Under the pieces are notes generated by a model. That model was not told where the DNA came from and made no database searches. It was given only the letters and a program-made list of their open reading frames with translations. From the NCBI GenBank assembly GCA_026388415.1, contig JAPLJV010000040.1, positions 1-64,000 of the forward strand: 64,000 nucleotides of DNA. Direction: 5' to 3'. A program made the position numbers and the translations under genes. This document shows, in pieces, positions 1-38,986 of this stretch. The stretch's first letter is position 1; every line of letters begins with the position of its first letter. This stretch comes from Deltaproteobacteria bacterium (GTDB lineage Bacteria; Desulfobacterota; Syntrophia; Syntrophales; JACQWR01).

Positions 1-105
1 GGCGCCGCGCGAATCAGCAAGCAGGCAACTATCAGGCAGGAGCCTCAGGACTTCCCCAATCCGCCTGACTTGATGCGCCAACATATCGATCAAGCTGTAG
101 CTTAG
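1..105 (+). other. Possible 3' end of a gene cut by the window edge
   Basis: Frame 1 is open from the first base to a TAG at 103-105 (34 codons) and is followed within ten bases by a strong hairpin, so it could be the tail of a plus-strand gene. The short peptide is not recognised. If real, a plus-strand gene sits directly upstream of the integrase, where a cassette array would be expected. Chance openness over this length is quite possible. Confidence 0.2.
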
Positions 106-112
106 CTCCGCC

Positions 113-141
113 GTTGCCGTCGCGCGCAGCGCGACGGCAAC
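113..141. repeat. Perfect 13-bp inverted repeat (hairpin)
   Basis: Arms GTTGCCGTCGCGC (113-125) and GCGCGACGGCAAC (129-141) are exactly complementary around a 3-base centre. No U-run follows on either strand, so it is not a typical intrinsic terminator. It lies between the possible upstream gene and the integrase promoter. The remaining sequence from 142 to 256 is AT-rich and shows nothing else that can be supported. Confidence 0.6.
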
Positions 142-256
142 AATTAATATACATAATACCTAATTCCGCTGTTTTTTCAACAGCGACATTGATTTAATGA
201 GTAATTATCTACGCGAAATTTTATTTAAAAGCAAATAATTATTAAATAAAATATTA

Positions 257-286
257 TTGACATCTTACTTAAAAAGTGTTTATTAT
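257..286 (+). promoter_or_regulatory. Sigma70-type promoter of the integrase gene
   Basis: TTGACA at 257-262 and TATTAT at 281-286 are separated by 18 bases, in an AT-rich stretch ending about 80 bases before the likely start codon. No LexA box of the form CTGT-N8-ACAG was seen. Confidence 0.65.
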
Positions 287-367
287 CTGCAAAAGCGTAA
301 CGCGTATAATCAATGATTATTGGCAAATAATGGCCGGGTTCAACTATTTCATCATCAGGAGCACCAG

Positions 368-1672
368 ATGAATCATATTTTGCCGGAGTTTCAAAAGTTT
401 ATTGCCCAGCGCAAACTGGCGGCGGAAAACCAGATCCCTTTTTACGCTAACTGGGCAAGCAAGTTCTTGCAGTTTTCCAATTCACGGCAAGACAAACCAT
501 TGGATTTAAGAATCCAAATGTTTCTTGATGTTCTGAAGCAGGACAAGAAACTGCAGGACTGGCAATGCACACAGGCCGATAACGCTCTCAAGCTGTATAT
601 TCATCATTTCCTGGCGGGCAATACATCGGTGCTGTCACCCGCTACGGAAACTGCACCCGAAAAAAAATATCCCGACGCCAAAACAGTGCAGGAAAAAATT
701 CGCGAAATTTTGCGCATCAAGCATTATGCCTATAGCACGGAAAGAACTTACATAGACTGGTTCCTGCGTTTTCATGCCTACCTGACGGGCGTAAAAAATA
801 AAGATTGGGAAACTACAGGCGCTGATGAAGCGGATGTCCGGGATTTTCTGGGGCACCTGGCGATCAAGCAGCGGGTGTCGTCCTCTACTCAAAATCAGGC
901 GTTCAACGCGCTGCTGTTTTTGTTCCGCGAGGTTCTCAAAATTGATCTGCATGATCTAAGTAAAACGGTGCGGGCCAAAAGAGGCCCCAAGTTGCCTGCA
1001 GTTCTGACGCAAAATGAAGTACTCGGCCTGCTGGAGCATTTATCCGGCAGGGAACTTCTGCTGGTTCATATCCTCTACGGCACGGGCATGCGGCTGATGG
1101 AGGTGGCCAGACTGAGGGTTCAGGATATTGATTTCGGATTGAATTCCGTTATTGTCCGGGCAGGTAAAGGCGATAAAGACAGAATAACGGTTCTTCCGGA
1201 TGCTGTTAAAAATAAACTTCAAGAGCATCTGGACGCAGTCAAAAAAATTCACGAGCAGGATTTAGCCAAAGGTTTTGGCGAGGCCTATCTGCCGGACGCT
1301 CTCGAAGGAAAATATCCGAATGCCGTCACAGAATGGCGCTGGCAGTATGTCTTCCCCGCCGCGTCACTCTCCGTTGATCCGCGATCCGGCAAGGTGCGCC
1401 GTCATCATATCAGTCCCAGCTCCATTCAGAAAGCTGTTGCGGCCGCGGTCAGAAAGGCCGGCATTCCGAAACACGCCACTGTGCATACGTTACGTCACAG
1501 TTTTGCCACGCATTTACTGATGAACGGAGTCAATATTCGAGAGGTTCAGGAGCTTCTCGGCCACAAGAATGTTGAGACAACGATGATCTATACCCATGTG
1601 CTGCGCAATATGTCGAAAGCACCGCAAAGCCCTCTCGATACGCTTTTAAAAGCAGATGGAAAAAAAGGATGA
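368..1672 (+). CDS. intI: Integron integrase (tyrosine recombinase)
   Basis: Site-specific recombinase that exchanges attI and attC sites of gene cassettes. Numbering starts at the ATG at 368, chosen because AGGAG lies 6 bases upstream; the frame also opens at a TTG at 320. Catalytic residues are all visible: Arg242, Lys267, His373, Arg376, His399 and Tyr408. The integron-specific insert between Lys267 and His373 is present (residues about 306-331, with YLPDAL and EWRWQYVFP), which separates IntI from XerC/D. At 434 residues it is about 100 longer than most IntI. The extra N-terminal part (about 1-95) resembles a second SAM-like DNA-binding domain ahead of the usual one (about 100-205). Cassettes should lie to the left, beyond the window. 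An attI site could not be pinned down. Confidence 0.93.
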
Positions 1673-1739
1673 GGGTTTGCTCGATTGTAAAAAAGGTAAA
1701 CAATTTTGTTATCATGCCCTCGGGGGCCTGTCCGTGCGG

Positions 1740-1790
1740 GTCAGTTCAACGCGTTGAACTGACTTAAAATAATGATATAATTAATTAAAC
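1740..1790. repeat. 24-bp palindrome plus AT-rich repeat shared with 56666-56695
   Basis: Bases 1740-1763 form a perfect 24-bp palindrome whose centre contains GTTCAAC and GTTGAAC, matching the attC core consensus (RYYYAAC/GTTRRRY). The following GAACTGACTTA and AT-rich tail (1756-1790) recur with few changes at 56666-56695 beside the cassette-like block. It sits 67 bases after the integrase stop codon. Confidence 0.6.
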
Positions 1791-2016
1791 AAGCATATGC
1801 CTTTTCATTTGCCTGCCAATTTTTTGCCCCGTTTTTCTGCCTCGGCAGCGGCTGTTTATTGCGCCATTGTCTGAAATTTGGTCTCGATGGTCTGCTTGAG
1901 GTTTTCCAGGGCACTGGCGAAGCTGTCCCCGGAATTCATACTTCGTACTTGAATGGAAGGATTCCGTGTGTCATAATAATCTACGTTTATCAAAGAGAAT
2001 GAAAAAGGGGCAGCCT
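1791..2016. other. Intergenic region with no supported gene
   Basis: Between the repeat and the methyltransferase start there is only a 27-codon minus-strand frame beginning at an ATG near 1940. It has no recognisable homology or ribosome binding site and may be a gene relic. Confidence 0.4.
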
Positions 2017-3009
2017 ATGATCAGCATTACACCTGAAGAGGTCATGAAATTATCCCGTAATTTCATGGAGAGCCGTATCCTGTTAACCGGAGCGGAGTTA
2101 AATATCTTTGACCTGCTGAAAAAAACCTCCCTAACGGTTCAACAAATATCAGCAAGGCTCAGTACCGATATCAGAGCCACGACTATTCTATTAGACGCTC
2201 TTGCCGCGATGGGCCTGCTTGTAAAGAGCAACGAATCATATCAATGCACTCCCTCACTGGCCCCGTATCTTTCTGATAGTGATCCAAATTCAATCTTGCC
2301 CATGATCCTTCATGCCGCCCATCTCTGGGACAGATGGGCCAATTTGACGGATATAGCTAAGGGAAAAACTCCATCGGGCGCCGATAGAGATTCTTCTTTC
2401 AGCGGCCATGAATTAAAATCCTTTATAGGAGCGATGCACACAGTTTCCGGCTCGCGTGCGGGGGAAATTATCAAAGGAATAAATCATGATCGCTCCAAGT
2501 TCCTGCTTGACTTGGGGGGAGCATCGGGCACCTATACCATTGCATTTCTGAAAAGCTCACCCGCAATGAAAGCGACTTTGTTTGACCTGCCCGAAGTCAT
2601 CGAACTGGCCCGGGAACGGCTGGAAGAAGAAGGAATGCTTAATCGGGTCACTCTTGCAGGCGGCGATTACCTGCGCGATGAAATTCCTCAAGGTCATGAT
2701 CTGGCTTTTCTGTCAGCAATTATCCATTCCAATAACCCGGAGCAAAACCTTGACCTTTACAAAAAGGTTTTTCGTTCCCTGATCCCGGGCGGTAAGGTCA
2801 TTATCCGGGATCATGTCATGGAACCGGACAGAACCCGCTCGGAAGCGGGAGCAATATTTGCGGTCAACATGCTCGTTGCCACTAAAGGCGGGAGAACGTA
2901 TACCTTTGATGAAATCAGTACCGGTCTATCGCAAGCTGGTTTTCATAACATCCATTTACTCAACAAATCTGATAGAATGGAAGCACTTGTGGAAGCATTC
3001 AAGCCTTAA
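2017..3009 (+). CDS. SAM-dependent O-methyltransferase (Methyltransf_2 type)
   Basis: Methyl transfer from S-adenosylmethionine to a small-molecule hydroxyl; the substrate is unknown. The N-terminal part (about residues 5-75) is a winged-helix dimerisation domain of the plant-OMT/CrtF type. The C-terminal Rossmann fold carries the glycine-rich SAM loop LDLGGASGTY at about 163-172, an acidic residue in LFDLPEV, and a later GGKVIIRDHV strand. The ATG at 2017 is preferred because AAAGGGG ends 6 bases upstream; the frame opens earlier, at 1966 and 1999, without a good Shine-Dalgarno. At 330 residues it is normal for the family. It stands alone between the integrase and the oxidoreductase operon, so context says little about its substrate. 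Confidence 0.85.
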   Translation: MISITPEEVMKLSRNFMESRILLTGAELNIFDLLKKTSLTVQQISARLSTDIRATTILLDALAAMGLLVKSNESYQCTPSLAPYLSDSDPNSILPMILHAAHLWDRWANLTDIAKGKTPSGADRDSSFSGHELKSFIGAMHTVSGSRAGEIIKGINHDRSKFLLDLGGASGTYTIAFLKSSPAMKATLFDLPEVIELARERLEEEGMLNRVTLAGGDYLRDEIPQGHDLAFLSAIIHSNNPEQNLDLYKKVFRSLIPGGKVIIRDHVMEPDRTRSEAGAIFAVNMLVATKGGRTYTFDEISTGLSQAGFHNIHLLNKSDRMEALVEAFKP

Positions 3010-3064
3010 ACCTGCCGTAAGGGAAATTATTAAAGTGGCGTTGTCCGGGATTCAATAAATTTAA

Positions 3065-3093
3065 TTGACATCCAAAACTGTTCTCCCTATACT
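3065..3093 (+). promoter_or_regulatory. Promoter of the oxidoreductase operon
   Basis: TTGACA (3065-3070) and TATACT (3088-3093) are separated by exactly 17 bases, followed by CCGCCC. The same TTGACA-N17-TATACTCC module occurs before the N-ATPase operon and the thiolase gene. Confidence 0.75.
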
Positions 3094-3141
3094 CCGCCCG
3101 GTTAAAACATAAGCCTTGTCAAATAAAGAAATTACTGCCGG

Positions 3142-3843
3142 TTGGTGCAAGTGGATATCAGTCTTGAGGGAATTGTTGTAATTGTCGGCAACTACGGGAG
3201 CGGGAAAACGGAGATTTCCGTAAATCTGGCGGCAGAGAGAAGGCTGACCGGCCTGGAGGTCAGCATTGCCGATCTTGATCTGGTCAATCCCTATTTCCGG
3301 GCGCGCGAGGCGAGGAAACAGCTTGCCGCGCTGGGTATTAAAGTCATCTTGCCCGCAGATAGATACCTGCAGGCCGACCTGCCGATATTGAGCCCGGCGG
3401 TGGCCGGACTGCTTCGCAGACCCAGCGGACTTACCATCCTCGATGTGGGAGGAGATAAGGTCGGGGCAACCGTGCTGGCGTCTCTGGGCGATGCCATGAA
3501 AGGGCATCCCTTCCGCATGCTGCAGGTGATCAATCCTTTGCGGCCCTTTACGGATAATTTAAGCGGGTGCATGAGGATGAAGGATGAAATAGAGCAGGCT
3601 TCCCGCATGCCGGTAAGCGGTATCATCGGGAATGCCAATCTGATTGATGAAACAACCGCTGATATCATCTATGAAGGGTATGACTTTGTAATGGAGGTAT
3701 CCCATAAAAGCGGTCTTCCCCTGGAATTCATTACTGTTTCTGTCGGGCTCGAGGATGAAATTGACGGGGAGCGTTTCTCATGCCCCCTCTTGGTTTTGCA
3801 CAGGCAGCTTGTTCCGCCTTGGAAAAAAGCCGCCCTGTTGTAA
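3142..3843 (+). CDS. P-loop ATPase encoded with 2-oxoacid oxidoreductase
   Basis: A 233-residue P-loop NTPase with a Walker A motif GNYGSGKT at about residues 16-23, then a Walker B-like TILDVGGD strand (about 97-104). It resembles the MinD/CobQ-like ATPases often encoded just upstream of ferredoxin-dependent 2-oxoacid oxidoreductase subunits. A role in cofactor or cluster maturation is a guess. The start is uncertain: TTG at 3142, GTG at 3145 and GTG at 3151 share the frame and none has a clear Shine-Dalgarno. The stop lies 20 bases before the ferredoxin subunit, so it is probably the first gene of that operon. Confidence 0.75.
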   Translation: MVQVDISLEGIVVIVGNYGSGKTEISVNLAAERRLTGLEVSIADLDLVNPYFRAREARKQLAALGIKVILPADRYLQADLPILSPAVAGLLRRPSGLTILDVGGDKVGATVLASLGDAMKGHPFRMLQVINPLRPFTDNLSGCMRMKDEIEQASRMPVSGIIGNANLIDETTADIIYEGYDFVMEVSHKSGLPLEFITVSVGLEDEIDGERFSCPLLVLHRQLVPPWKKAALL

Positions 3844-3863
3844 GTCGTGGTTAAGGAGTTTAG

Positions 3864-4103
3864 ATGAAATACGAATATTTTATTGAGTTTGACAGATGCA
3901 AGGGGTGCGGTTTGTGTATTGACGTGTGCCCGAAGAAAGTTCTCGCTATCTCGCCGGAGGTAAATACAAAAGGATATTTCCCCGCTTACCAGGCCCGTCC
4001 CGAGGATTGTGTTTATTGTTCAACCTGCTGCATTATGTGCCCCGATGCGGCAATCAGCATAGCGGATGCTGCCGATAAGGGGAAAACCGTGGTAAAGGAG
4101 TAG
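3864..4103 (+). CDS. korD: 2-oxoacid:ferredoxin oxidoreductase, ferredoxin-like delta subunit
   Basis: A 79-residue 2[4Fe-4S] ferredoxin-type subunit that carries electrons out of the oxidoreductase. Both cluster motifs are complete: CKGCGLCIDVCP near residues 12-23 and CVYCSTCCIMCP near residues 50-61. AAGGAG precedes the ATG. It is 10 bases upstream of the alpha subunit gene and 20 bases downstream of the P-loop ATPase gene, which fits one transcript. Whether the enzyme is of the Kor (2-oxoglutarate) or Vor (branched-chain) type cannot be settled from the sequence. Confidence 0.9.
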   Translation: MKYEYFIEFDRCKGCGLCIDVCPKKVLAISPEVNTKGYFPAYQARPEDCVYCSTCCIMCPDAAISIADAADKGKTVVKE

Positions 4104-4113
4104 GAGGAGATAC

Positions 4114-5193
4114 ATGGGCAAGATTTTAATGAAGGGGAACGAAGCGATTGGTGAGGCCGCCATCAGGGCCGGCTGCTTGAACTACTTTGCCTATCCCATT
4201 ACTCCCCAGTCCGAGGTGGCGGAATACCTTTCCCACCGCCTGCCGGAAATCGGCGGTGTTTTTCTGCAGGGAGAAAGCGAGGTAGCCGTCGGGTATATGC
4301 TTTTTGGCGCGGCCGGTTGCGGGGCCCGCGTATTTACGACTTCCTCCAGCCCCGGTGTCAGCTTGATGAGTGAAGCCATAAGCTATCTGGCCGGCGCCCA
4401 GTTGCCGGCGGTCTTTGTCAACATCATGAGAGGGGGACCCGGACTCGGAGGAATACTGCCGTCGCAGGGCGATTATTTTCAAGCGACCAAGGGCGGCGGC
4501 CACGGCGATTACCATCTGCTCGTCATGGCGCCGGCCAGCGTTCAGGAGGCGGCGGAAATGGTCATGCGGGCCTTCCCCCTGGCGGAGAAATACCGGAATC
4601 CCGTCATGATTCTCGGAGACGGATTGATCGGGCAGATGATGGAACCAGTTGAATTTCCGGAGCGCCTGAAGTCAGAACCGAGCAACAAAGATGCCTGGGC
4701 CACAAACGGGATGGGTATGAGAAAGAGCAGCAAGCGCAATCTGGTCAAATCTCTCTTTCTGGATGCCGTGGAACTAAATAACAACAACCTGGTCCTGAAG
4801 GAAAAATACACCCGCATGAAGAGCGAGGAAATAAGGTACGAAAAATATAATATGGATTCCGACTATCGGATGTTTATCGTCAGCTTCGGCACTATGAGCC
4901 GGGTCTGCCGTACGGCCATTGATAGCCTGAAGGAAGAAGGGATTGAGGTAGGCATGATCAGACCCCAGACCCTCTTTCCGTTTCCGGAGGAGGCGGTTTC
5001 CGCCGCTGCCTCGAAAAGCGGCTGCACCATGGCCTTGAGCATCGAAATGAACATGGGCCAGATGGTTGAAGATGTGGAGAGATGTGTGCACGGTAAATGC
5101 CCTGTCGAGTGGTTTGGCAAGTGCGGCGGGGAAGTGCCGACGCCGGAAGAGATAATGGATGTGGTGAAAGGCTTTCTGGCTCAGAGCCGATGA
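4114..5193 (+). CDS. korA: 2-oxoacid:ferredoxin oxidoreductase, alpha subunit
   Basis: The 359-residue alpha subunit of a CoA-acylating 2-oxoacid:ferredoxin oxidoreductase, which oxidises a 2-oxoacid to acyl-CoA and CO2 with reduction of ferredoxin. The N-terminal pyrimidine-binding domain is recognisable from the GNEAIGEAAIRAG start, YPITPQSE, the ESEVAVGYM stretch and TSSSPGVSLMSE. The C-terminal transketolase-like domain runs from about residue 245. GGAGGAG precedes the ATG. Length and subunit order match the four-subunit KorA/VorB family; 2-oxoglutarate and branched-chain 2-oxoacids are the main substrate candidates. Confidence 0.92.
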   Translation: MGKILMKGNEAIGEAAIRAGCLNYFAYPITPQSEVAEYLSHRLPEIGGVFLQGESEVAVGYMLFGAAGCGARVFTTSSSPGVSLMSEAISYLAGAQLPAVFVNIMRGGPGLGGILPSQGDYFQATKGGGHGDYHLLVMAPASVQEAAEMVMRAFPLAEKYRNPVMILGDGLIGQMMEPVEFPERLKSEPSNKDAWATNGMGMRKSSKRNLVKSLFLDAVELNNNNLVLKEKYTRMKSEEIRYEKYNMDSDYRMFIVSFGTMSRVCRTAIDSLKEEGIEVGMIRPQTLFPFPEEAVSAAASKSGCTMALSIEMNMGQMVEDVERCVHGKCPVEWFGKCGGEVPTPEEIMDVVKGFLAQSR

Positions 5194-6561: not shown

Positions 6562-7761
6562 TTAAGGTTCAGTAACAGGATTTTTCTCGATCCGGCGAAA
6601 ACGGTCGGGAATTGTGTAATCAACTTCTTCGGGGTGGTGCTCAAAAATCGGGAAGTACCTTGCTATTAAAGCAAAAAACAGTATATGGGCCGCGATGATC
6701 CCAACTGTCACGACCGATTCCAGGAATGACGGATAATATATCTTCTGGTCTTTCTGGATCAAGCCGAACATGGAGACATTGAACCGGTTCAGAACAAGAC
6801 CGAAAAAAACGACCATGCTTGCAGCGCGCAACTGCCACCGGCTATCGGTTCTTATGCGTTTGGTCATAAACATAATTAACGGGATTATGATGCCCAGTAC
6901 TACCTCCATAAGAAAAAGAATTGTGAGCCCTGGACGATCAAAGAGCGGTCTTGCACTAAGAAAGAAGAGGGCATAGATTTTGATGAAAAGGTAGATTCCG
7001 AGAAACCAGGGGATGATTTTCGTTAGCGTGGCAAGCAACTCCGTTTCATCCGGTTGTTTCAGATACCGGTGTACCATGATGGCTTCAACAATAACAATGG
7101 CGAGGCCTGTGAAAACAGACGATATCCAGAAGAGCATCGGCAGGAGCGGGTTATACCAGAGGTTGTGCAGCTTATCTACGGCGATGAGAAAGAACGTGCC
7201 GATAGTTGACTGATGTAGCGTGGCAATTGCCGCTCCGAGAACTATTAGAGGCACCTCTATGGTACGGAGCAGACGCAGCGGTACATGAAACCCGAATTTT
7301 TCGCACACAGGTGAAAGAAACTCAAGAAATGCAACTGTCGTATAAGACATGACACAAAGGGCTACTTCAAACATCGGTGAATGCAGATTAGGATATGCGA
7401 AAATGTGCCATCCCCGCTGGGGCTGACCCAGATCAAGTAGAAGACCTATACATACAAGGGAGTAGCCGAGGAAACCGGTCACAATTGCAGGTCGAACCAA
7501 CGGTTCAAGCTTTTTGATATGAAAACAGTGAACCACTGCACCCAAAACGAAAGCGCCTGCCGCTAAAGGAACGGATGTTACAACATCAAAAGAAATCCAG
7601 AGCCCCCAGGGATATACATCGCTCAAGTTGGTGGTGGCGCCGAGACCGAAGATGAAACGGGCGGTAGCGGCAAGCACGCCGGCTGCAACCAGAAGCATGA
7701 GTATCTTGATAAACATGTGATACCCTTTAATCTCCTGTTTTATGTTAGCTATAACAGACAT
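6562..7761 (-). CDS. NrfD/PsrC-family membrane subunit of formate dehydrogenase
   Basis: A 399-residue integral membrane protein of the NrfD/polysulfide-reductase family, with many hydrophobic helices. The N-terminal region has YPWGLWISFDVVTSVPLAAGAF and a later LDLGQPQRGW loop, both typical of the family. It should link the periplasmic Fe-S subunit to the quinone pool in place of the cytochrome b subunit of E. coli FDH-N. Its ATG overlaps the stop of the iron-sulfur subunit gene (TAATG), so translation is coupled. It is the last gene of the three-gene operon. Confidence 0.9.
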   Translation of the reverse strand: MSVIANIKQEIKGYHMFIKILMLLVAAGVLAATARFIFGLGATTNLSDVYPWGLWISFDVVTSVPLAAGAFVLGAVVHCFHIKKLEPLVRPAIVTGFLGYSLVCIGLLLDLGQPQRGWHIFAYPNLHSPMFEVALCVMSYTTVAFLEFLSPVCEKFGFHVPLRLLRTIEVPLIVLGAAIATLHQSTIGTFFLIAVDKLHNLWYNPLLPMLFWISSVFTGLAIVIVEAIMVHRYLKQPDETELLATLTKIIPWFLGIYLFIKIYALFFLSARPLFDRPGLTILFLMEVVLGIIIPLIMFMTKRIRTDSRWQLRAASMVVFFGLVLNRFNVSMFGLIQKDQKIYYPSFLESVVTVGIIAAHILFFALIARYFPIFEHHPEEVDYTIPDRFRRIEKNPVTEP

Positions 7762-8600
7762 TATTCACCCTCCTTTGGCTGAGTCGTCGCAGATTTTCTC
7801 GCCTCCTCTTCTTTACGCAGTCGGTCCTTTCTATGGGTAAGCCATGAGATGAAGGCCAATGAACCGCCCATAGTAAGGAATACGCCTGGCACAAAACGCA
7901 AGGCGGCCCATGTAAGAGAGGGTAGGAGACGTTTGGTGACATGCTTGAATCCGAGTTCATCGAAAGGCTGCTCTGTCAGATAGAGTACGCTGGTACCGCC
8001 CGCCTCTTCGAGTCCATAGATCTTGTTAAAATAACGGTCAGGTTTTGACGCAAGGCGCCGTTTTGCCTCCTGAATCATGTCCGTGCGGCTGCCGTAGGAG
8101 ATGGCCGAGGGACATGCCTTTGCGCATGCAGGTTTAAGTCCTGCCTTAAGCCGGCTGTAGCATCCGGTGCATTTTACCACTAAGGGCAGTGCCTTGCTCC
8201 ATTGGTATTTGGGCACGCCAAAGGGGCAGGCGATCATACAAAAGCGGCAGCCGATGCAACGCTTGGTGTCGTAAACAACCGGCCCTTCAGGGGTCTTGAT
8301 AAGGGCGCTGACAGGGCATACCGATACACAGGCAGGCTCGTTGCAGTGCATACACATTTCCTTGTAGAAGGCGAACTCGTTATGGCCGTTTTTTTCATAA
8401 TCGCAGAACTTGATCTTTGTAAGGGTGTATTCGGACATGGCAGGCGGGTTCTGGTAGCCTGCGCCTTGGAAAAACACGGTCTTTTCAGCCTTCATCTGAT
8501 TCCATTGTTTACATGCCACCTGGCAGGCGCGGCAACCGGTGCATCTTGACAGATCTATCAGGAAAGTTCTATCCTGGGAAAAATCTCTTGCTGCGCTCAT
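7761..8600 (-). CDS. fdhB: Formate dehydrogenase iron-sulfur subunit
   Basis: A 279-residue electron-transfer subunit with four [4Fe-4S] cysteine groups, the first being CTGCRACQVAC at residues 20-30, then CMHCNEPACVSVCP, CIGCRFCMIACP and a CTGC...CAKACP set. A single transmembrane helix near the C-terminus (about 233-252) precedes a charged tail, as in FdnH-type subunits anchored in the membrane. It lacks its own export signal and would be carried out with the Tat substrate FdhA. The start overlaps the fdhA stop by 4 bases (ATGA). Confidence 0.93.
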   Translation of the reverse strand: MSAARDFSQDRTFLIDLSRCTGCRACQVACKQWNQMKAEKTVFFQGAGYQNPPAMSEYTLTKIKFCDYEKNGHNEFAFYKEMCMHCNEPACVSVCPVSALIKTPEGPVVYDTKRCIGCRFCMIACPFGVPKYQWSKALPLVVKCTGCYSRLKAGLKPACAKACPSAISYGSRTDMIQEAKRRLASKPDRYFNKIYGLEEAGGTSVLYLTEQPFDELGFKHVTKRLLPSLTWAALRFVPGVFLTMGGSLAFISWLTHRKDRLRKEEEARKSATTQPKEGE

Positions 8601-11600
8601 GACTTATTACCTCCCTTCTCAACATTACAAAGGAATGCTTTGTACTCGGGGATGTTTGAGGTTGGGCTTAAGACTTCCGGGGTCAGGACGTTGGCGCTAT
8701 CTCCTGTGGCCATGCCGGCGTAACCGAAATGCCACGGCATGCCCACCTGTTCGATGGGCTTGCCGTCAACAACGAACGGTTTAAGGCGGGCAGTAACCAG
8801 TGCGTATGCCTCAATTGAGCCTCTTTCAGTGCTTACATTAACAAGGTCGCCGTTTTTGACCCCCTTTGTCTGTGCCAGCGATTTGCTTATCTCTACAAAC
8901 ATGTTCGGGACCAATTCTACAAGCCAGGGCAGACTGCGTGTCATCCCTCCGGTCTGCCAGTGCTCGGTCATACGGTAAGTAGTGCCGATATAAGGATACT
9001 TGTTCATGTCGCAACTGTCATTTTCAGATAACGCCACACAGGGATTGTTCTGTACCTTGGAGAGAAGATTCCTTGCCGGACTTTCTATCGGTTCATAGTG
9101 CTCCGGGAAAGGACCGTCTGGCATGGTAAGAGCATAGATACGGCCTACACCTTCGGAATTCATGATAAAAGGATTGACCCCTTTTTCATCTTCCACAGGC
9201 GGAGCGCCTCCATCAGGCACATCCCCTTGCCACTTCTTTTCAACAGGATCCCAGGCAATGACAGGACGTTTTGGGTCAAACGGCTGCCCTGCCTTATTAA
9301 CGGAGGCACGGTTGTAAAGGATGCGCCGGTTTACGGGCCAGGCCCATGCCCATTTCGGATACATCCCGAGATTGTTGGGAAGGTCTGTAGAGTCCCGCCT
9401 GGCCATCATATTCCCGTCTTTTGTGTATGAGCCGCAATATATCCAGCAGCCCGACACCGTTGATCCGTCGTCCTGGAGTTGGGCAAAGGCCGGCACCTGA
9501 TCTCCGGCTTTAAACTCCAGGGTTTTGTCTTTATCTTTAATGCTTGTATCGCGTGTAAAGTAGCCGTTGATTTCCTTTGCGACCCGGTGAACATCAGGCT
9601 CATGACCGTCGCCATAGTTCCATGCCATTTTTACAATTGGATCAGGGAAAGCCCCGCCCTCTTTTTTGTAAAGAGCCCTTATCTTTTTGTGGAACTGATC
9701 GAGTATCCAGAGGTCGCTTTTGGCTTCGCCGGGCGGTGAGACCGCGGCATAACGCCACTGGGCCCATCGTCCGGAGTTGCTTATACTTCCCTCTTTCTCC
9801 ATGGATGCAGCCGCAGGCAGCATAAAAACTTCTGTCTTGATATCCTTGGGATTTACTCCGGGACGTTTCCAGAAAATAGCTGTTTCGGTCTCCCAGAGAT
9901 CGGCAGTGACGAGCCATTGGAGCTTTCCAAGGCCTTCACGTGCCTTGAGGGAGTTTGGTCCTCCTACAGCAGGGTTCATCCCCATACAGACCAGACCTTC
10001 AATCTCTCCCTTCAAAATCTTGCGCATAGCCTGGACATAAGAATAGTTGCCGCTTCGTTTTGGCATATAATCATAACAGAAACCGTTTTCAGCAGTTGCA
10101 TTCTCACCCCACCATGCTTTGAGGAGGCTGGTAATATACTTGCCGCCGTTCTGCCACCAGTTGGTGCTCTTAGGCTCCTTTGACTTCGGGAAATATCTGG
10201 CAATGTATGCTTCGAGAGAAGAATCACTGAAATCGGGCGATGCAATGTAACCCGGCAGAACATGGAAGAGAAGGCCGTAGTCAGTGGAGCCCTGAACATT
10301 GGATTCGCCACGCAGTGCATTTACCCCGCCACCGGCGATGCCGATATTGCCAAGCAGCAATTGGAGCAGGGCAGTAGCGCGTACATTCTGGACCCCGTGG
10401 GTAGATTGGGTGATCCCCATGGCGTAAAGTATGGTGCCCGCCTTATCAGGTCTGCTTGTGCCACAGAAGGTCTGGGCAACTTTCAGGTAGTCCTCTTTTT
10501 TAGCGCCTGTAACTGAGCAGACCATATCAACTGTGTAACGGGAGTAGTGTTTTTTCAAGAGCTGGAAAACACAACGGGGGTCTGACAACGTCGGGTCGCG
10601 ACGCGCTTTCCCCGATTCGTCCAGCGCATAGGCCCAGGATTTCATGTTATAAGACTTTTCACGAACATCCCAGTTTGCAAACATCCCCTCTTTAAAGCCA
10701 TACCCTTCGGTAACGATGAAGGAGGCATTTGTATACTCTCTGACATATTCATTTTGGATAAGGTTGTTCTGCAAAGCATAATTAATGAGCCCCCCGAGAA
10801 ATGCGATATCGGTCCCAGGCCTGGTGCGGGCGTAGATACTTGCCTTTGAGGAAGTCCTGGTAAAGCGTGGATCTACAGAGATAAGCGTTGCCCCTTTTTC
10901 CATGGCTGCTTCGATCCATTTGAAAGAGATCGGGTGATTTTCGGCCGGGTTGCAGCCTATGGCCATAATACAATCGCTGTTTTTCAGGTCGTTCCAATGG
11001 TTTGTCATTGCACCCCGTCCAAAAGATGCCGCCAGACCGGCGACGGTGGACGAGTGTCAGAGACGCGCCTGGTGCTCTAAGTAAACCACACCCATAGAAC
11101 GTGCAAATTTGCTTTCAAGGTAGCATTCCTCGTTATCGAGACCTGCCCCTCCAAAGATGGCAATGCCCTCAGTGCGATTTACGGTATATTGGTTGCCGTC
11201 TTTCTTGTTGATCTCCTTAAGTTTGAATGTCCGGTCACGCGTTTCCTTCATGAGCTTTGATATCCGGTCAAGAGCCCAATCCCAGGATTTTTCTTCCCAT
11301 TTTTCTGAGCCCGGGGCGCGGTACATTACTTTTTGAAGGCGCCGTTCGTTGTTTGCCACCTGGAACATGGCTTCGCCTTTTGAACAGAGCGAGCCCTGGT
11401 TGATCGGACTTGACTCATCACCCTCAATATTGACGACCTTGCCGTCTTTTACGTGCACGATCATACTGCACCCTACTGCACAGAATGGGCACACAGTAGT
11501 TGTTGTTTTGAGACCTTTGGTTCGAAGCTCCGGTGAGTCGAAATTGCTGGCACCGGCCGTTTTTTCAGAAATCGCCAGCCCCGCGGCTGCAACTCCGCCC

Positions 11601-11632
11601 CCAATAATGAACTTTCTTCTCGAAATATCCAT
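8597..11632 (-). CDS. fdhA: Formate dehydrogenase catalytic subunit, selenoprotein
   Basis: Molybdopterin-dependent formate dehydrogenase (formate to CO2), 1011 residues including selenocysteine, close to E. coli FdnG in length. A Tat signal with SRRKF is at residues 4-8, followed by a hydrophobic stretch. The [4Fe-4S] ligands are Cys48, Cys51, Cys55 and Cys83. The frame has one in-frame UGA (complement of 11057-11059), codon 192, in the context LEHQARL-U-HSSTVAGLA. That is exactly where FDH-N has its active-site selenocysteine, and the frame continues intact for 819 codons. AAGGAG precedes the ATG. The enzyme should act in the periplasm with the two downstream subunits. A gene caller that stops at UGA will split it into 11057-11632 and 8597-11008. 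Confidence 0.95.
11013..11056 (-). promoter_or_regulatory. Bacterial SECIS element in fdhA
   Basis: Immediately downstream of the UGA the minus strand folds into a hairpin. Outer segments GTCCA and TGGAC pair, an inner GCC/GGC stem follows, and the apical loop is GGTCT (complement of 11034-11038). A GGUCU-type loop on a stem just 3' of the UGA is the known E. coli fdhF/fdnG arrangement recognised by SelB. Confidence 0.8.
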
Positions 11633-13462: not shown

Positions 13463-14848
<1,386 letters not shown>

Positions 14849-14849
14849 G

Positions 14850-15236
14850 ATGAAGCTGAAGATCCTGCTTCCGGCCGAGATATTTCTGAGCGAAGAGGTG
14901 ACCAAGGTGGTCGCCGAAGCGGAAAACGGCCTGTTCTGCCTTTTGCCCCTGCATGTCGATTTTACAGCGGCCCTCGTTCCCGGCGTTTTCTCCTACAGCA
15001 CGGCCGGAGGCGAAGACTCCTATCTGGCCATTGATATCGGCACGCTGGTCAAGACAGGGTCCGATGTTCTGGTTTCGACGCGCAACGCCTATCGAAGCCC
15101 CGAACTGGGTCATTTGAAGGAAGTTGTCATTGCCCAGTTCAGGGAAATAGACGAACGTGAGAAGAAGGCCCGGACCGCCGCGGCCAGACTGGAAGTGGAT
15201 CTACTGCGCCGGTTCATCGAGCTGAGACATGAATAG
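14850..15236 (+). CDS. atpC: N-ATPase F1 subunit epsilon
   Basis: A 128-residue epsilon subunit beginning MKLKILLPAEIFLSEEVTKV, with the beta-sandwich pattern (FCLLPLHVDFTAALVPG) and a C-terminal helical part. It belongs to the central stalk. It starts one base after the atpD stop codon. Placement directly after atpD is normal for N-ATPase operons, whereas housekeeping operons end with D-C. Confidence 0.9.
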   Translation: MKLKILLPAEIFLSEEVTKVVAEAENGLFCLLPLHVDFTAALVPGVFSYSTAGGEDSYLAIDIGTLVKTGSDVLVSTRNAYRSPELGHLKEVVIAQFREIDEREKKARTAAARLEVDLLRRFIELRHE

Positions 15237-15287
15237 CGAATTCGCCGCCGGCAGACGATCATTTAGCGATATTTTTACGAGGTCATC

Positions 15288-15650
15288 ATGAGTGACGAAC
15301 AAATGACACCGAAGGAAAGGCGCCTGAAGCAGGAAAAAGAATACACCCGGAAAATCGGGGTGAAGGAATCGCTGCGCATCAAGGGCAAGAAGCACAAAGA
15401 CGAAACGGTCTGGTTCGGTCTCGGCATGATCGGTGTCGTGGGGTGGTCCGTCGCCATTCCCACGCTCATCGGAACAGCACTCGGGCTCTGGATTGACCTG
15501 ACCTGGCCCAGCCGCTTTTCCTGGGCGCTGATGCTTCTGATCCTGGGGGTTGCGCTGGGATCCGCAAACGCCTGGCACTGGGTCAGGAGGGCCAGGGAAG
15601 ACATTATCAAAGACGGGGATGATAGTTCACCGCCGCAGGGGGAAGCTTAG
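15288..15650 (+). CDS. atpQ: N-ATPase accessory subunit AtpQ (AtpI-like)
   Basis: A 120-residue protein with a highly charged N-terminal third and two transmembrane helices (about residues 44-66 and 72-92), followed by a charged tail. This is the AtpI-like layout of the AtpQ proteins encoded in N-ATPase operons. Known roles for AtpI/AtpQ relatives are c-ring assembly and possibly Mg2+ handling. Identification rests mainly on position between atpC and atpR and on the two-helix architecture. Confidence 0.8.
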   Translation: MSDEQMTPKERRLKQEKEYTRKIGVKESLRIKGKKHKDETVWFGLGMIGVVGWSVAIPTLIGTALGLWIDLTWPSRFSWALMLLILGVALGSANAWHWVRRAREDIIKDGDDSSPPQGEA

Positions 15651-15689
15651 GCTGCAGTTGTTTCGACAATGGTGTGAGAGGATCGGCGC

Positions 15690-16013
15690 ATGTTTTCTTT
15701 ATCAACACTTTTAGTCCCCTTCGTCCTCGGCGGTCTGATCGGCTTGGTCTATTTTTTAGGCCTCTGGGAGACAGTGCGCAGGCTCCCTGAAGCGAAAAGC
15801 CCGCACAGGCTCATGATTCTGAGCTTTGCGGCACGGACCATTTTTGCCTTAGGCGGGTTTTTCCTCCTCACAGACGGGGCATGGGAACGTATGGCCGCTG
15901 CCGTCCTGGGATTTTTCATCGTCAAGACGGTTCTGGTCGGCACCCTTGGCAGGATCCCGATGCCGCCGGGTCGGGTGACACGGCCTACAGGAGCATGCTC
16001 ATGGAAATCGTAG
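15690..16013 (+). CDS. atpR: N-ATPase accessory subunit AtpR
   Basis: A 107-residue, three-helix membrane protein at the fixed atpR position of N-ATPase operons. Conserved arginines lie within and beside membrane segments (WETVRRLPEA, FAARTIFALGG), a feature noted for AtpR, which has been suggested to interact with the c-ring carboxylates. GAGAGGA precedes the ATG. Its 3' end overlaps the start of atpB by 13 bases. Confidence 0.82.
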   Translation: MFSLSTLLVPFVLGGLIGLVYFLGLWETVRRLPEAKSPHRLMILSFAARTIFALGGFFLLTDGAWERMAAAVLGFFIVKTVLVGTLGRIPMPPGRVTRPTGACSWKS

Positions 16014-16723
16014 CCATCCATCAGATCAGTCCGGATCAGGTCATTTATTTCGCGTGGCATTTTATCACCATCAGTGCCGCTCTCGTGTACACCTGGATCG
16101 TCATGGTTATCCTGGTCATCGGTTCACTGGCGATCACGCGGAATCTGTCGTCGGACCGCAAAATGTCCCGCTGGCAGAACCTGATGGAGGTGATTGTCGC
16201 CACAATCCGCTCCGAGATCCGGGAAGTCGTCAGCGAAGGCGGGGATTCCTATTTCCCCTTTATCGGAACCCTGTTCATTTTCATCCTCATGTCGAATGTG
16301 TTGACCTTCGTCCCCGGTTATGTGGCGCCGACCTCGTCGCTCACGACGACAGCGGCCCTGTCCGTTCTGGTCTTCTTCGCCGTTCCGATTTTCGGCATTA
16401 CGAAACAGGGTCTTATCGAATATCTCAAGGAATATTTTCGTCCGAACTTTATCTTTTTCCCCCTGCATGTCATGGGCGAAATGGCCAGGACGCTCTCCCT
16501 GGCCGTCCGGCTTTTTGGAAACATGATGAGCCATGAAAAGGTGATCGCCATCCTGCTTTCGGTGACGCCCCTGTTTTTCCCTGTCGCCATGCAGGCCCTG
16601 GGACTGCTGATCGGCATCATTCAGGCATATATCTTTGTAGTCCTGACCATGGTTTACATTGCAGCGGCAACACAGTCGCATGAGGGCACAGAACATAAAC
16701 CCAAAGTGTACAAAACAACCTGA
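16001..16723 (+). CDS. atpB: N-ATPase F0 subunit a
   Basis: The 240-residue stator subunit a forming the ion half-channels. The essential arginine lies in SLAVRLFGNMMSHE. Several transmembrane helices are evident, including GTLFIFILMSNVLTFVPGY and the final IIQAYIFVVLTMVYIAAATQ. The ATG at 16001 is preferred over an upstream in-frame ATG at 15995 because CAGGAG (15988-15993) is 7 bases away. The frame is open back to 15881 within atpR, but that part is not a-subunit-like. Confidence 0.93.
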   Translation: MEIVAIHQISPDQVIYFAWHFITISAALVYTWIVMVILVIGSLAITRNLSSDRKMSRWQNLMEVIVATIRSEIREVVSEGGDSYFPFIGTLFIFILMSNVLTFVPGYVAPTSSLTTTAALSVLVFFAVPIFGITKQGLIEYLKEYFRPNFIFFPLHVMGEMARTLSLAVRLFGNMMSHEKVIAILLSVTPLFFPVAMQALGLLIGIIQAYIFVVLTMVYIAAATQSHEGTEHKPKVYKTT

Positions 16724-16758
16724 AACCGAAAAACAACGAAGGGAGGAAAAAACAAGTT

Positions 16759-17037
16759 ATGGACAACGTGAGCATTGTAGCAACGGTATCGATTATTACG
16801 GCAGGCATCTGTATGGCTGTGGGCTCCATTGCGCCGGCCATGGGGCAGGGACGGGCGATACATGGCGCCTTAAGTTCCATCGCACAGCAGCCGGATGAGC
16901 GCAACTCCCTGACGAGAACGCTTTTCGTGGGTCTCGCAATGATGGAATCCATCGCAATCTACTGCTTTGTCATCTCCATGATTCTGGTGTTCGCCAATCC
17001 GTTCTGGGCATACGTCATCAAGAAAGCGGGGGGATAA
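16759..17037 (+). CDS. atpE: N-ATPase F0 subunit c, probable Na+ type
   Basis: A 92-residue two-helix c subunit forming the rotor ring. The first helix ends in APAMGQG and the second carries MMESIAIY. These provide Gln, Glu, Ser and Tyr at the positions that bind Na+ in the Ilyobacter tartaricus ring (GQG and ESTGIY there). The Thr after the Glu-Ser pair is Ile here. The ligand set supports sodium coupling, which is usual for N-ATPases. AGGGAGG precedes the ATG. Confidence 0.93.
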   Translation: MDNVSIVATVSIITAGICMAVGSIAPAMGQGRAIHGALSSIAQQPDERNSLTRTLFVGLAMMESIAIYCFVISMILVFANPFWAYVIKKAGG

Positions 17038-17041
17038 TTCC

Positions 17042-17839
17042 ATGCATATCGACTGGTTTGTCTTTTTCTCCCAGATCGTCAACTTCCTGATCCTCATGTT
17101 CCTGCTGAAGAAGTTTCTCTTCGGGCGGATCATCGGGGCGATGGACGCCCGGGAGGCGAAGATCGGCGCGGTCTTTATGGAGGCCGAAAAATCCCGGCAA
17201 GCGGCCGAAGCGGCCGCGGAGAGCCACACAAAAAAGCTCCGGGATATCGAGGCGGGTTACGAGCAGATGCTCCTCAAGAGCCGCCAGGATGCGGAGGCCT
17301 ATCAAGGACAACTCCTCGAAAAGGCCCGTGAAGAGGTGGACTTTCTCAAGGCCCGGTGGATGGAGGCCCTGCAGTCTGAACGGGCCAACTTTCTCCAGGA
17401 ATTGCGACGTCTGGCGGGTCATCAGGTTTACGCCGTGAGCCGGCGCGTCCTGAAAGATCTGGCCGACCTCGACCTCGAGGAGCGGATCGTGGAAGTCCTC
17501 ATCGAACGCATCGAAGCCCTGGACGAGCAGGAGCGGAAAAAATTTCAGGGGCCGACCGAAAACGGCAGTATCGTTATTTCCTGCGCCTTTGAGATTCCAC
17601 CGGCGACACAGGCGAGGCTCGACGGCGTTCTGCGCCGTTTCTTTCCGGGCATCAGCGGGATTGTCTATGAACGGTCGGACGACGTCCTGTCCGGATGCGA
17701 GCTGCGGTCGAATGGCCACAAAATCGCCTGGAGCGTCAAGGACTACCTCGACAGCCTCGAGGAAAGATTCTATTCGGCTCTGTACGGAGAGGCCCAGGAT
17801 TTGAAGCAGACGAAAGAAGGAGTGGATCATGAGCGTTGA
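17042..17839 (+). CDS. atpF: N-ATPase subunit b with delta-like C-terminal domain
   Basis: A 265-residue b subunit, about 100 longer than ordinary b. It has an N-terminal membrane helix ([20 protein letters not shown]), a long charged coiled coil (about 40-150), then a globular end. That end (about 165-250: [20 protein letters not shown], then [20 protein letters not shown]) follows the C-terminal pattern of delta (OSCP), where a strand-helix unit precedes an LIGGI-like turn and DGS-like end. No separate atpH is present in the operon, so this protein probably supplies both stator functions. It overlaps atpA by 11 bases. Confidence 0.9.
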
Positions 17840-19388
17840 AGCGACAGAGAAGAATGAATTGAAGGCGTTTCTCGACGGGACCTTCCAGACGCTCGACGAT
17901 GTTCTGGCCAGTCAGGAGGCCGAACTGCGGGAGCGCGAGGTGGGCGTCGTTTCCTATGTCGGGTACGGCATCGTCCGGGTCGAAGGGCTGCCCAGCATCC
18001 GGGCCGACGAGCTCGTTCTGTTTCCTCAAAACCTCCAGGGACTAACCTTCAACATTGATCCCCAGGAAATCGGCGTGATTCTGCTGGGGCCCACGGGTGA
18101 CCTGCGGGCGGGCGCGGAAGTGAGACGCACGGGCAGGATCCTCGACGTTCCCGTCGGTGAGGCTCTCATTGGCCGCGTCGTGGACGCTCTGGGTGTTCCC
18201 CTCGATGACCGTGGAGAGATCCGGACCATGAAACGACTGCCCGTCGAACGCGAAGCGCCGGCGGTCATGGCAAGAGATCCCGTTACGGAGCCCCTTCAAA
18301 CGGGGATCAAGGTGATTGACGCCCTGTTCCCGATCGGCCGGGGTCAGCGGGAGCTGATCGTCGGCGACCGGCAGACGGGCAAGACGGCCATTGCCATAGA
18401 CGCCATCATCAACCAGGCAGACAAAGACGTCCTGTGCATCTATTGCACCGTCGGCAAAAAGGCCTCAGACGTCGCCAAGGTCATTGCGGACCTCAAGCAG
18501 TACAACGCCATGGATTACGTCATTGTCGTTGCCGCCACGGGAGATGACCCGCCGGGCCTCCAGTTTATCGCTCCCTACGCCGCCACCACCATGGGCGAAT
18601 ATTTCATCGCTTCCGGCCGCGACGTCCTGATCGTCTATGATGACCTCACCTCTCACGCCCGCGCCTACCGCGAACTCTCGTTGCTGCTGCGGCGGCCGCC
18701 GGGCCGGGAAGCCTTTCCCGGAGATATTTTTTATATCCATTCCCGTTTGCTAGAGCGCTCGACCCATCTGAGGAAAGAACACGGCGGCGGCTCTTTGACG
18801 TCGCTGCCCATCGTGGAGACGGAGGCGCAGGATATTTCAGGCTATATCCCGACCAATCTGATTTCCATTACGGACGGGCAGCTCTATCTCTCCCCGCGCC
18901 TTTACCAGAAGGGCATTCTCCCTGCCGTGGATGTGGGAAAATCGGTGTCGCGCGTGGGCGGCAAGGCCCAGCTCCCGGCCTTTCGCGCGGTGGCGGGGGA
19001 TCTGCGAATCTCCCATTCCCAGTTCGAGGAGTTAGAGACTTTTTCCCGGTTCGGCACGCGCCTCGATGAGGCGACCCGGAAGGTACTCGAACGCGGCTGG
19101 CGCGTCCGGGAAATCCTCAAGCAGCCCCAGTACAAACCGATCCCGGTGGCGGAGCAGATTGCTGCCATGCTGGCGGTCACCACGGGGCACTTCGACACCA
19201 TAGCCATCGCCGACATCCGGGCGGCAGAAGAATCGCTGCGCAAAAACGTGGCGGTAAACCAGAGCGATTTCTGCTCCCGCATCACCGGAGGAAGTAAACT
19301 TGACGACGCGGACCAGAAAACGATTACCAGCATCGCCAAAGATACGGCGGCCAGTTTTCTGAAGGAGCCCGACCGTGCAAACCCCTGA
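17829..19388 (+). CDS. atpA: N-ATPase F1 subunit alpha
   Basis: The 519-residue non-catalytic alpha subunit. Walker A is GDRQTGKTA; the family run [20 protein letters not shown] and the arginine-finger region [11 protein letters not shown] are present. The ATG overlaps the end of atpF and the 3' end overlaps atpG by 14 bases, so translation is coupled across three genes. Confidence 0.95.
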
Positions 19389-37060: not shown

Positions 37061-38986
37061 ATGAAACATATTATTCTGGGCACGGCCGGGCATGTAGATC
37101 ACGGCAAGACATCGCTCGTCAAGGCTCTCACCGGCATAGATACGGACCGACTCAAGGAAGAGAAGGAACGCGGCATTACCATTGAGTTGGGATTTGCCTC
37201 CCTCACCCTTCCCGATGGCCGATTGCTCGGGCTCGTGGATGTGCCGGGTCATGAGCGCTTCATAAAACACATGGTGGCCGGCGCCGGCGGCATTGATATG
37301 GTGGTCCTGGTGATTGCCGCCGACGAAGGGGTGATGCCGCAGACGAAAGAGCATCTGCATATCTGTTCCCTGCTGGGTATTAAAAAGGGCCTGGTCGCCC
37401 TCACGAAGACAGATATTGTTGAGCCATCCTGGCTGGAGCTCGTCACCGATGACGTCCGGGAATATCTGCAAGGCACATTCCTAGCCTCTGCCCCGCTGGT
37501 TCCGGTTTCCGCAGCCAACGGCGAAGGGTTGCCGGAACTTCTGCAGGCAATCTCGAACGTTACTGATCAAATAGAGGATGATTACGACAATGGCATCTTC
37601 CGGCTCCCGATTGACCGGGTCTTTACCATGAAAGGTTTTGGCACGGTTGTGACGGGCACGTTATTGTCGGGGAGTCTCCGCGTGGGAGAGGAAGTGGCCA
37701 TCCTGCCCGGCCAGATCATGGCGAAAGTGCGGGGCTTGCAGGTGCATAACCGGCAGGTGGAGGAAGCCGAAGCGGGGCAGAGGACCGCCGTGAATTTGCA
37801 GGGGATAGAAAAGGCGGCGATTCTAAGAGGCGATGTGCTGGCCCATCCCGCTACCCTGAGCCCGTCGCGTCGCCTGGATGTCAGCCTCGAATATCTGCCT
37901 GCCGCCGGCAAAAAATTAAAGAACCGGGCGCTGGTCAGATTGCACGTGGGCGCCAGTGAGCTTATTACCCGCGTGGTATTGATGGACCAGGACGAACTGG
38001 AGCCGGGGGAAAATGCCTTTGCCCAGTTAGTGCTCGAATCACCGGCCGTGGTCATGACGCGGGACCGCTTTGTTATCAGGAGCTATTCTCCCATGACGAC
38101 GATTGGTGGGGGCATGATTCTTGATTCCCAGGCCGTGAAGCATAAACGACATCTGGAGCAGACAGGGGACGATTTTCGCGTCCTCCGTGATGGCACAGAT
38201 CAGGAACGAACGGCCGTGATGCTGGCCAGGGCGGGTCTGACAGGGATTACCATGCGGCAACTCGCCGTACGAACCGGGCTCCACCAGACAATGATGAAAA
38301 ACATTCTGGCCGAAATGTTTGCCAAAAAACAGGCCGTCCTGATTGATAAAGAAGAAACACGGGCTCTGGCCTTCGGCCTTTATAAAGGCCTTCAAGCGCG
38401 GATCATGTCGCAGACGAAGTTGTATCATGAGAAATTTCCTTTGAAAGAGGGGCTGCAAAAAGAGGAATTGAAGAACTCCCTGGGACGCCCGGTCAGCGCC
38501 AAGCTTTTCCATTTGGTTATGCAGGACATGGAAAAAGGCGGTGGGCTGGTAGTCGAAAGGGAGCATGTCCGACTTGCCGGGCATGCCGTTGACTTGTCCG
38601 GCGAACAGGAGGACCTGCGCGGGGCCTTGGCCCGCGTTTACCTGGATGCGGCGCTGACACCGCCCTCCGTCAAGGAAGTAATGGCAAAATTTGCCGACCG
38701 GAAGGCGCAAATTGATAACGTCTTGGGAGTGATGCTCAAGGAAGGACTGCTTGTAAAAATCAGCGCGGATTTATTTTTTCACAGCGCGGTCATTCAAAAA
38801 CTGAGGAATGATTACAAGGGCTTGCTGATCCGGGAGGAGAAGGCCAACCCGGCGAGCTTCAAGGAACTTACCGGCCTGTCCCGAAAATTTATTATTCCTC
38901 TCATGGAATATTTCGACATGACCAAGCTGACCATCCGGGCGGGCGAGTATCGCCTCCTGAGAGACAAAGCAGAGAACAATCAGTAA
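37061..38986 (+). CDS. selB: Selenocysteine-specific elongation factor
   Basis: A 641-residue EF-Tu-like GTPase that delivers selenocysteyl-tRNA to UGA codons followed by a SECIS hairpin. The G1 loop GHVDHGKT is at residues 10-17, DVPGHE near 60-65, and TKTD near 114. Two beta-barrel domains follow, then a long C-terminal winged-helix region (about 370-640) that binds SECIS RNA. The residues after the G domain ([20 protein letters not shown]) are typical of SelB. It matches the selenoprotein formate dehydrogenase in this window. No selA, selC or selD is visible nearby. Confidence 0.95.

Follow-up and report, generated by a model that had tools for sequence, protein, structure and literature searches.

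A predicted selenocysteine-containing formate dehydrogenase operon with an NrfD-family membrane subunit in a deltaproteobacterial contig

Solved and described formate dehydrogenases (FDHs) provide the background for the operon analysed here. The structures 9qm0 and 6sdr are presumed to represent the periplasmic selenocysteine (Sec) FDH of Desulfovibrio, and E. coli FDH-N (FdnGHI; 1kqf) is likewise taken to contain Sec. Catalytic roles in FDHs are played by Sec, His and Arg residues. According to PMC7894505 and PMC8691401, FdnGHI of Geobacter sulfurreducens (GSU0777-0779) is a selenocysteine FDH that is bound to the membrane and faces the periplasm. FqoABC, a formate:quinone oxidoreductase composed of an FDH pair and an NrfD-like subunit, is proposed in PMC8076601, which also reports a Deltaproteobacterial group, FqoC3. 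FdhA is the most widely distributed bacterial selenoprotein family according to a 2026 review (PMC13188914), and PMC1794560 states that FdhA or SelD was found in every selenoproteome examined.

The DNA analysed, referred to as the window, is a 64,000-nt stretch of contig JAPLJV010000040.1 from a Syntrophales deltaproteobacterium. An FDH alpha chain is encoded on its reverse strand at 8597-11632 in a single frame of 1011 codons plus stop, which runs from an ATG preceded by AGGAG to a terminal UGA. With UGA read through, the only UGAs in this frame are codon 192 (11059-11057) and the terminal stop, and the original prediction had placed both the gene and its single internal UGA exactly. When read with table 11, the gene splits into an ORF of 191 aa at 11057-11632 and another of 803 aa at 8597-11008, the latter starting at its own ATG 46 nt past the UGA. 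The alpha chain scores 1334.3 bits against TIGR01553 (FDH-N alpha; cut-off 814.2) over model positions 1-1009 of 1009 and contains three molybdopterin-oxidoreductase Pfam domains. The 803-aa fragment alone also exceeds the TIGR01553 cut-off (1106.4 bits), whereas the 191-aa fragment falls below it (172.7 bits).

Residues 2-1006 of the alpha chain align with the solved selenocysteine FDHs 9qm0 and 6sdr and with 1kqf. In this alignment codon 192 matches residue 192 of 9qm0, and the next residue is His193, in agreement with the earlier claim that the UGA sits at the FDH active-site position. The motifs present are C48, C51, C55 and C83, presumably for a [4Fe-4S] cluster, together with the U192-H193 pair and R441 within an ALRGxxNVQG stretch, presumably the Sec/Cys-His pair and the Arg of the active site. 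The N-terminus (MDISRRKF) carries the twin-arginine motif RRKF. The Sec motif reads UHSS, and homologues have UHSA, UHSS or UHSP. The FdhA motif tabulated in PMC13188914 is UHxP, which the alpha chain does not match literally.

Conservation of the UGA was examined in an alignment of 110 rows, composed of the gene itself, 29 rows from the same order and 80 rows from named public genomes, the last being the best 80 of 431 matches. The Sec column contains TGA in 106 of the 110 rows, TGT in three and TGC in one, a mixture of TGA and Cys codons that reads as the usual exchange of Sec and Cys; UAG does not occur in this column in any of the 110 rows. The original prediction had also raised the matter of a stop followed by decay in close relatives. 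In the 11 closest homologues among the best 80 of 431 (L050-L060, 71-78% identity), no further stop interrupts the aligned part. An extra stop is present in L036, L042, L043, L045, L046, L099, L101, L116 and L123, in each case at or a few codons from the end of the matched stretch. A further gene flagged with both TGA and TAG (G028:C24:123909-126971) has TGA when its Sec region is read (L141). Among the flagged rows examined, only L048 (1227-4319; G056:C182) has an extra stop inside the matched stretch, a TAG at residue 390. It is a Cys-type FDH with TGC at the Sec column and no SECIS-like hairpin, and may be a broken gene, an error or a case of recoded TAG. The gene at L113 (5489-8425) has TGT at the Sec column yet retains a complete hairpin of the second type described below, and looks like a recent change from Sec to Cys.

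The putative SECIS element, GUCGCC-GGUCU-GGCGGC, is located at 11028-11044 on the reverse strand. Its 6-bp stem pairs 11044-11039 with 11033-11028 around the GGUCU loop at 11038-11034, it begins 12 nt past the UGA, and the UGA-to-loop spacing is 18 nt. These dimensions fall inside the bacterial SECIS limits quoted in PMC13188914. The 42 nt after the UGA fold at -17.4 kcal/mol. The two strands of the window together contain 2230 TGA triplets, and codon 192 is the sole one followed 16-37 nt downstream by a GGTCT loop whose stem has 6 bp or more, in a scan that covered the GGTCT loop alone among SECIS shapes; the terminal UGA of the alpha gene has no GGUCU hairpin in the same scan. In synonymous resampling, loop and stem were retained in 336 of 20000 sequences (1.7%) and a stem of equal length in 2188 of 20000, while a fold at least as stable arose in 0.76% of 5000 resamplings. 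On the single sequence the hairpin is thus only moderately unusual given the protein, and its identification as a SECIS is made firm by the comparative evidence, namely the UGA column, codon constraint and covariation. No match was found in the window by Rfam at the gathering threshold, and ARAGORN found nothing there.

Codon constraint was measured first within a 14-member clade, in which codons 197, 198, 200 and 201 are identical in 14/14 rows and codon 199 in 13/14; of its 568 eight-codon windows, 193-201 and 192-200 share first place. Across all 110 rows, a ranking that mixes hairpin types, codon conservation peaks in windows whose centres lie slightly upstream of the hairpin (186-193 being top), and 192-201 is fourth of 153. 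For the hairpin itself, 62 TGA rows of the 110 were compared, with the loops GGUCU (49), AGUUU (10), AGUCU (2) and GGGCU (1). The covariation test used 36 of these, chosen by hand from the GGUCU rows plus the one GGGCU row, and left out all 12 AGUUU and AGUCU rows and 14 further GGUCU rows. In 34 distinct rows, stem pair 18-30, which joins the third codon positions of Val197 and Ala201, is never mismatched: 21 rows have C-G and 13 have U-A. The covariation score of 0.266, inflated by the relatedness of the rows, was reached by none of 500 shuffles, and six slid versions gave at most 0.134; two of the five covariation measures are at the shuffle level and not above it. Over the full 62 rows, pair 18-30 is standard in all 62, pair 17-31 in 48, pair 16-32 in 52 and pair 15-33 in 45. 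The GGUCU hairpin claimed in the original prediction is present, constrained and covarying. Scanning 20 further regions and the E. coli locus for the motif gave no match in five of the 21 (L148, L149, L152, L153 and E. coli L154).

A second SECIS shape, CGGCUCU-GGC-AGAGUCG, replaces the GGUCU hairpin in 28 of the 29 same-order rows and 16 of the 80 named rows with UGA, and in the Cys row L113. Its seven pairs form in 45/45 rows and are identical to the letter, so no covariation test is possible. The same-order loci with this shape are L021-L047 and L049, and L134-L143, also of the same order, appear to share it. In G001, G047 and G058, where FDH genes of both classes were read, it occurs alongside a hairpin with the loop GGUCU or GGGCU, and for this reason one SelB presumably reads both shapes.

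The machinery for Sec insertion is encoded in this genome. The selB gene reported in the original prediction is located in the window at 37061-38986 on the forward strand (TIGR00475, 383 bits, cut-off 242.25), and profile searches for the partners it had named recovered selA, selC and selD, so that all four genes score above their cut-offs. The tRNA-Sec has the anticodon TCA, and selA lies at 64897-66276 of the same contig, just past the window end. The genome also encodes two fdhD genes and two further FDH genes with an in-frame UGA (contigs 57 and 46), both followed by a GGUCU loop at the spacing seen in the alpha gene. The selD gene (L132, G000:C21:37500-40870) itself contains a UGA (HGAGUACK), and the hairpin there has the loop CGGGC, unlike the FDH hairpins. 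Reading of UGA192 as a residue other than Sec, such as Cys or Trp, has in its favour that the inserted residue cannot be told from sequence and that four of the 110 rows carry a Cys codon, but the complete set of selA, selB, selC and selD and the covarying SECIS make it very improbable.

The alpha gene is the first of three that overlap by 4 nt and 1 nt, the beta ATG overlapping the alpha stop. The beta subunit (7761-8600, reverse strand) is predicted by Pfam and profile scores to be an HmcB/HybA-like ferredoxin-type Fe-S protein; it has four cysteine motifs and, towards the C-terminus, a single weak hydrophobic segment. It falls below the cut-off of the FDH-beta model TIGR01582 (165.8 against 334.7) and is nearest to HmcB (234.9, cut-off 420) and HybA (213.4, cut-off 263), both also below cut-off. 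The gamma subunit (6562-7761, reverse strand) has 10 hydrophobic segments by plain hydropathy, and NrfD (PF03916, 2.6e-21) is the sole Pfam family reported for it; no cytochrome b family in Pfam was matched. Its scores against the nearest models, HmcC (264.8, cut-off 550) and HybB-type PRK10881 (261.8, cut-off 450), are again below cut-off. The FDH-N identity given in the original prediction consequently holds for the alpha chain, while the membrane partner is NrfD/HybB-like and not an FdnI-type cytochrome b. Among the best 80 of 431 matches, 29 loci reach an alpha identity of 60% or more, and 26 of them have the alpha-beta-gamma order, with beta 62-77% and gamma 58-81% identical downstream of alpha; in the other three (L054, L058, L074) the contig ends before beta and gamma.

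A broken gene, whether a pseudogene with a genuine stop at the UGA or a sequencing error at that codon, would account for a frame split by a single in-frame stop. It has next to no probability when the UGA is common to 106 of 110 rows, the rest of the frame is open, the hairpin is constrained and covarying, and beta and gamma are intact. That the 191-aa and 803-aa products are translated independently and assemble into one enzyme, as the ATG of the 803-aa ORF might suggest, is scarcely credible, for the 16 residues around the active site (11057 to 11008) would be lost although they are conserved in the aligned rows. The readings as non-Sec read-through, as a broken gene and as two proteins were rejected on these grounds.

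On the sequence evidence of the frame, the conserved UGA, the constrained hairpin, the Sec machinery, the cofactor motifs and the gene order, this locus is almost certainly an ordinary alpha-beta-gamma operon for a Sec-containing respiratory FDH, whose alpha chain carries a Tat-type signal and whose UGA192 is decoded as Sec through the GGUCU hairpin. SelB and Sec-tRNA would read UGA192 because of the hairpin 12 nt downstream, and translation would stop at the terminal UGA, which has no such hairpin. The alpha chain would be exported through its Tat-type signal. Sec192 is predicted to bind the metal (Mo or W) held by the bis-pterin cofactor, where formate would be oxidised. Electrons would pass from the [4Fe-4S] cluster of alpha to the clusters of beta and then to the NrfD-family gamma subunit, which probably exchanges them with the quinone pool.

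The UGA is accordingly a codon and not a break, and the gene should be annotated as one selenoprotein of 1011 residues and a membrane-linked formate dehydrogenase attributed to the organism. The original prediction that annotation would split the gene is true of a plain ORF rule (191 and 803 aa) but not of every pipeline. RefSeq E. coli fdnG is a single CDS in 14 of the 15 rows listed from 5384 matching records, and K-12 RefSeq fdnG is also one CDS; the fifteenth row is a partial match of 156 bases annotated as a hypothetical protein. Automated tools frequently mis-call selenoproteins according to PMC13188914.

Two other features of the window were identified. An integron integrase is encoded at 320-1672 (TIGR02249, 420 bits, cut-off 265), and no attC array is obvious near it, a repeat search of 1-4200 giving two two-copy direct repeats and no inverted repeats. 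Genes for an alternate F1F0 ATPase, presumably the type often called N-ATPase, occupy 13469-19388; the beta gene scores 795 bits against TIGR03305 and the alpha gene 800 bits against TIGR03324, each above its cut-off.

The alpha gene was probably acquired laterally. The best alpha chain in 59 relatives, which all belong to the same order, is 56% identical, whereas the closest of the best 80 of 431 matches, from Geobacter and Syntrophorhabdaceae relatives, are 71-78% identical, including a MAG named Syntrophorhabdaceae (78%) and Geobacter argillaceus (73%). RpoB is 79.9% identical to that of a same-family genome as against 59-65% to four genomes with close FDHs, and SelB is 61.5% identical as against 42-46%. 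By these identities SelB agrees with RpoB, and the FDH is discordant with both. Lateral acquisition is the simplest reading of the conflict between FDH and RpoB, the alternative being old paralogy with losses. Mis-binning is unlikely because selB is on the same contig. A more tentative proposal, which we consider possible but rather doubtful, is that a laterally acquired Sec operon with its own SECIS relies on a resident SelB that shares only 42-46% identity with the SelBs of four genomes carrying the closest FDH homologues. The FDH-N-type alpha chain on a HybA/HybB-like module could then let the proton motive force drive electrons from menaquinol to CO2, a reverse transport that makes formate, in place of an FdnI-style redox loop.

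The finding is sound and ordinary, a Sec FDH as in many anaerobic bacteria, because FdhA is the most widespread bacterial selenoprotein family according to PMC13188914. What is mildly fresh is that the FDH disagrees with RpoB and SelB and that an FDH-N alpha chain is combined with a HybA/HybB-like module; Geobacter relatives have this operon too.

Among solved enzymes, 9qm0 is the closest to the alpha chain (1139 bits), with Sec at position 192 in both. The 9qm0 and 6sdr enzymes differ from this operon in that they are presumably soluble and lack an NrfD subunit. E. coli FDH-N is a Sec enzyme with an alpha chain homologous over its length, but the beta subunit here is below the FDH-beta cut-off and nearer to HmcB/HybA, and gamma is NrfD and not cytochrome b; a search of the E. 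coli fdn region gave no match to gamma. The Hyd-2-type HybA/HybB and HmcB/HmcC pairs have equivalog cut-offs above the beta and gamma scores. The alpha-beta-gamma composition already has precedents in print in GSU0777-0779 (PMC7894505, PMC8691401), likened here by the available published description and not by sequence, and in FqoABC (PMC8076601), which shares an FdnGH-like catalytic pair and an NrfD-like membrane subunit. In PMC8076601, FqoC has 8 helices, whereas the 10 hydrophobic segments of gamma equal the HybB number; FqoC3 is compared by description only. A close likeness is to G. argillaceus (L052), Pelotalea chapellei (L055) and Geomonas silvestris (L064), whose FDHs differ in alpha identity (73%) and phylogenetic background but have the UGA, an identical SECIS and genes arranged alpha-beta-gamma; identity is 71-72% for beta and 68-70% for gamma.
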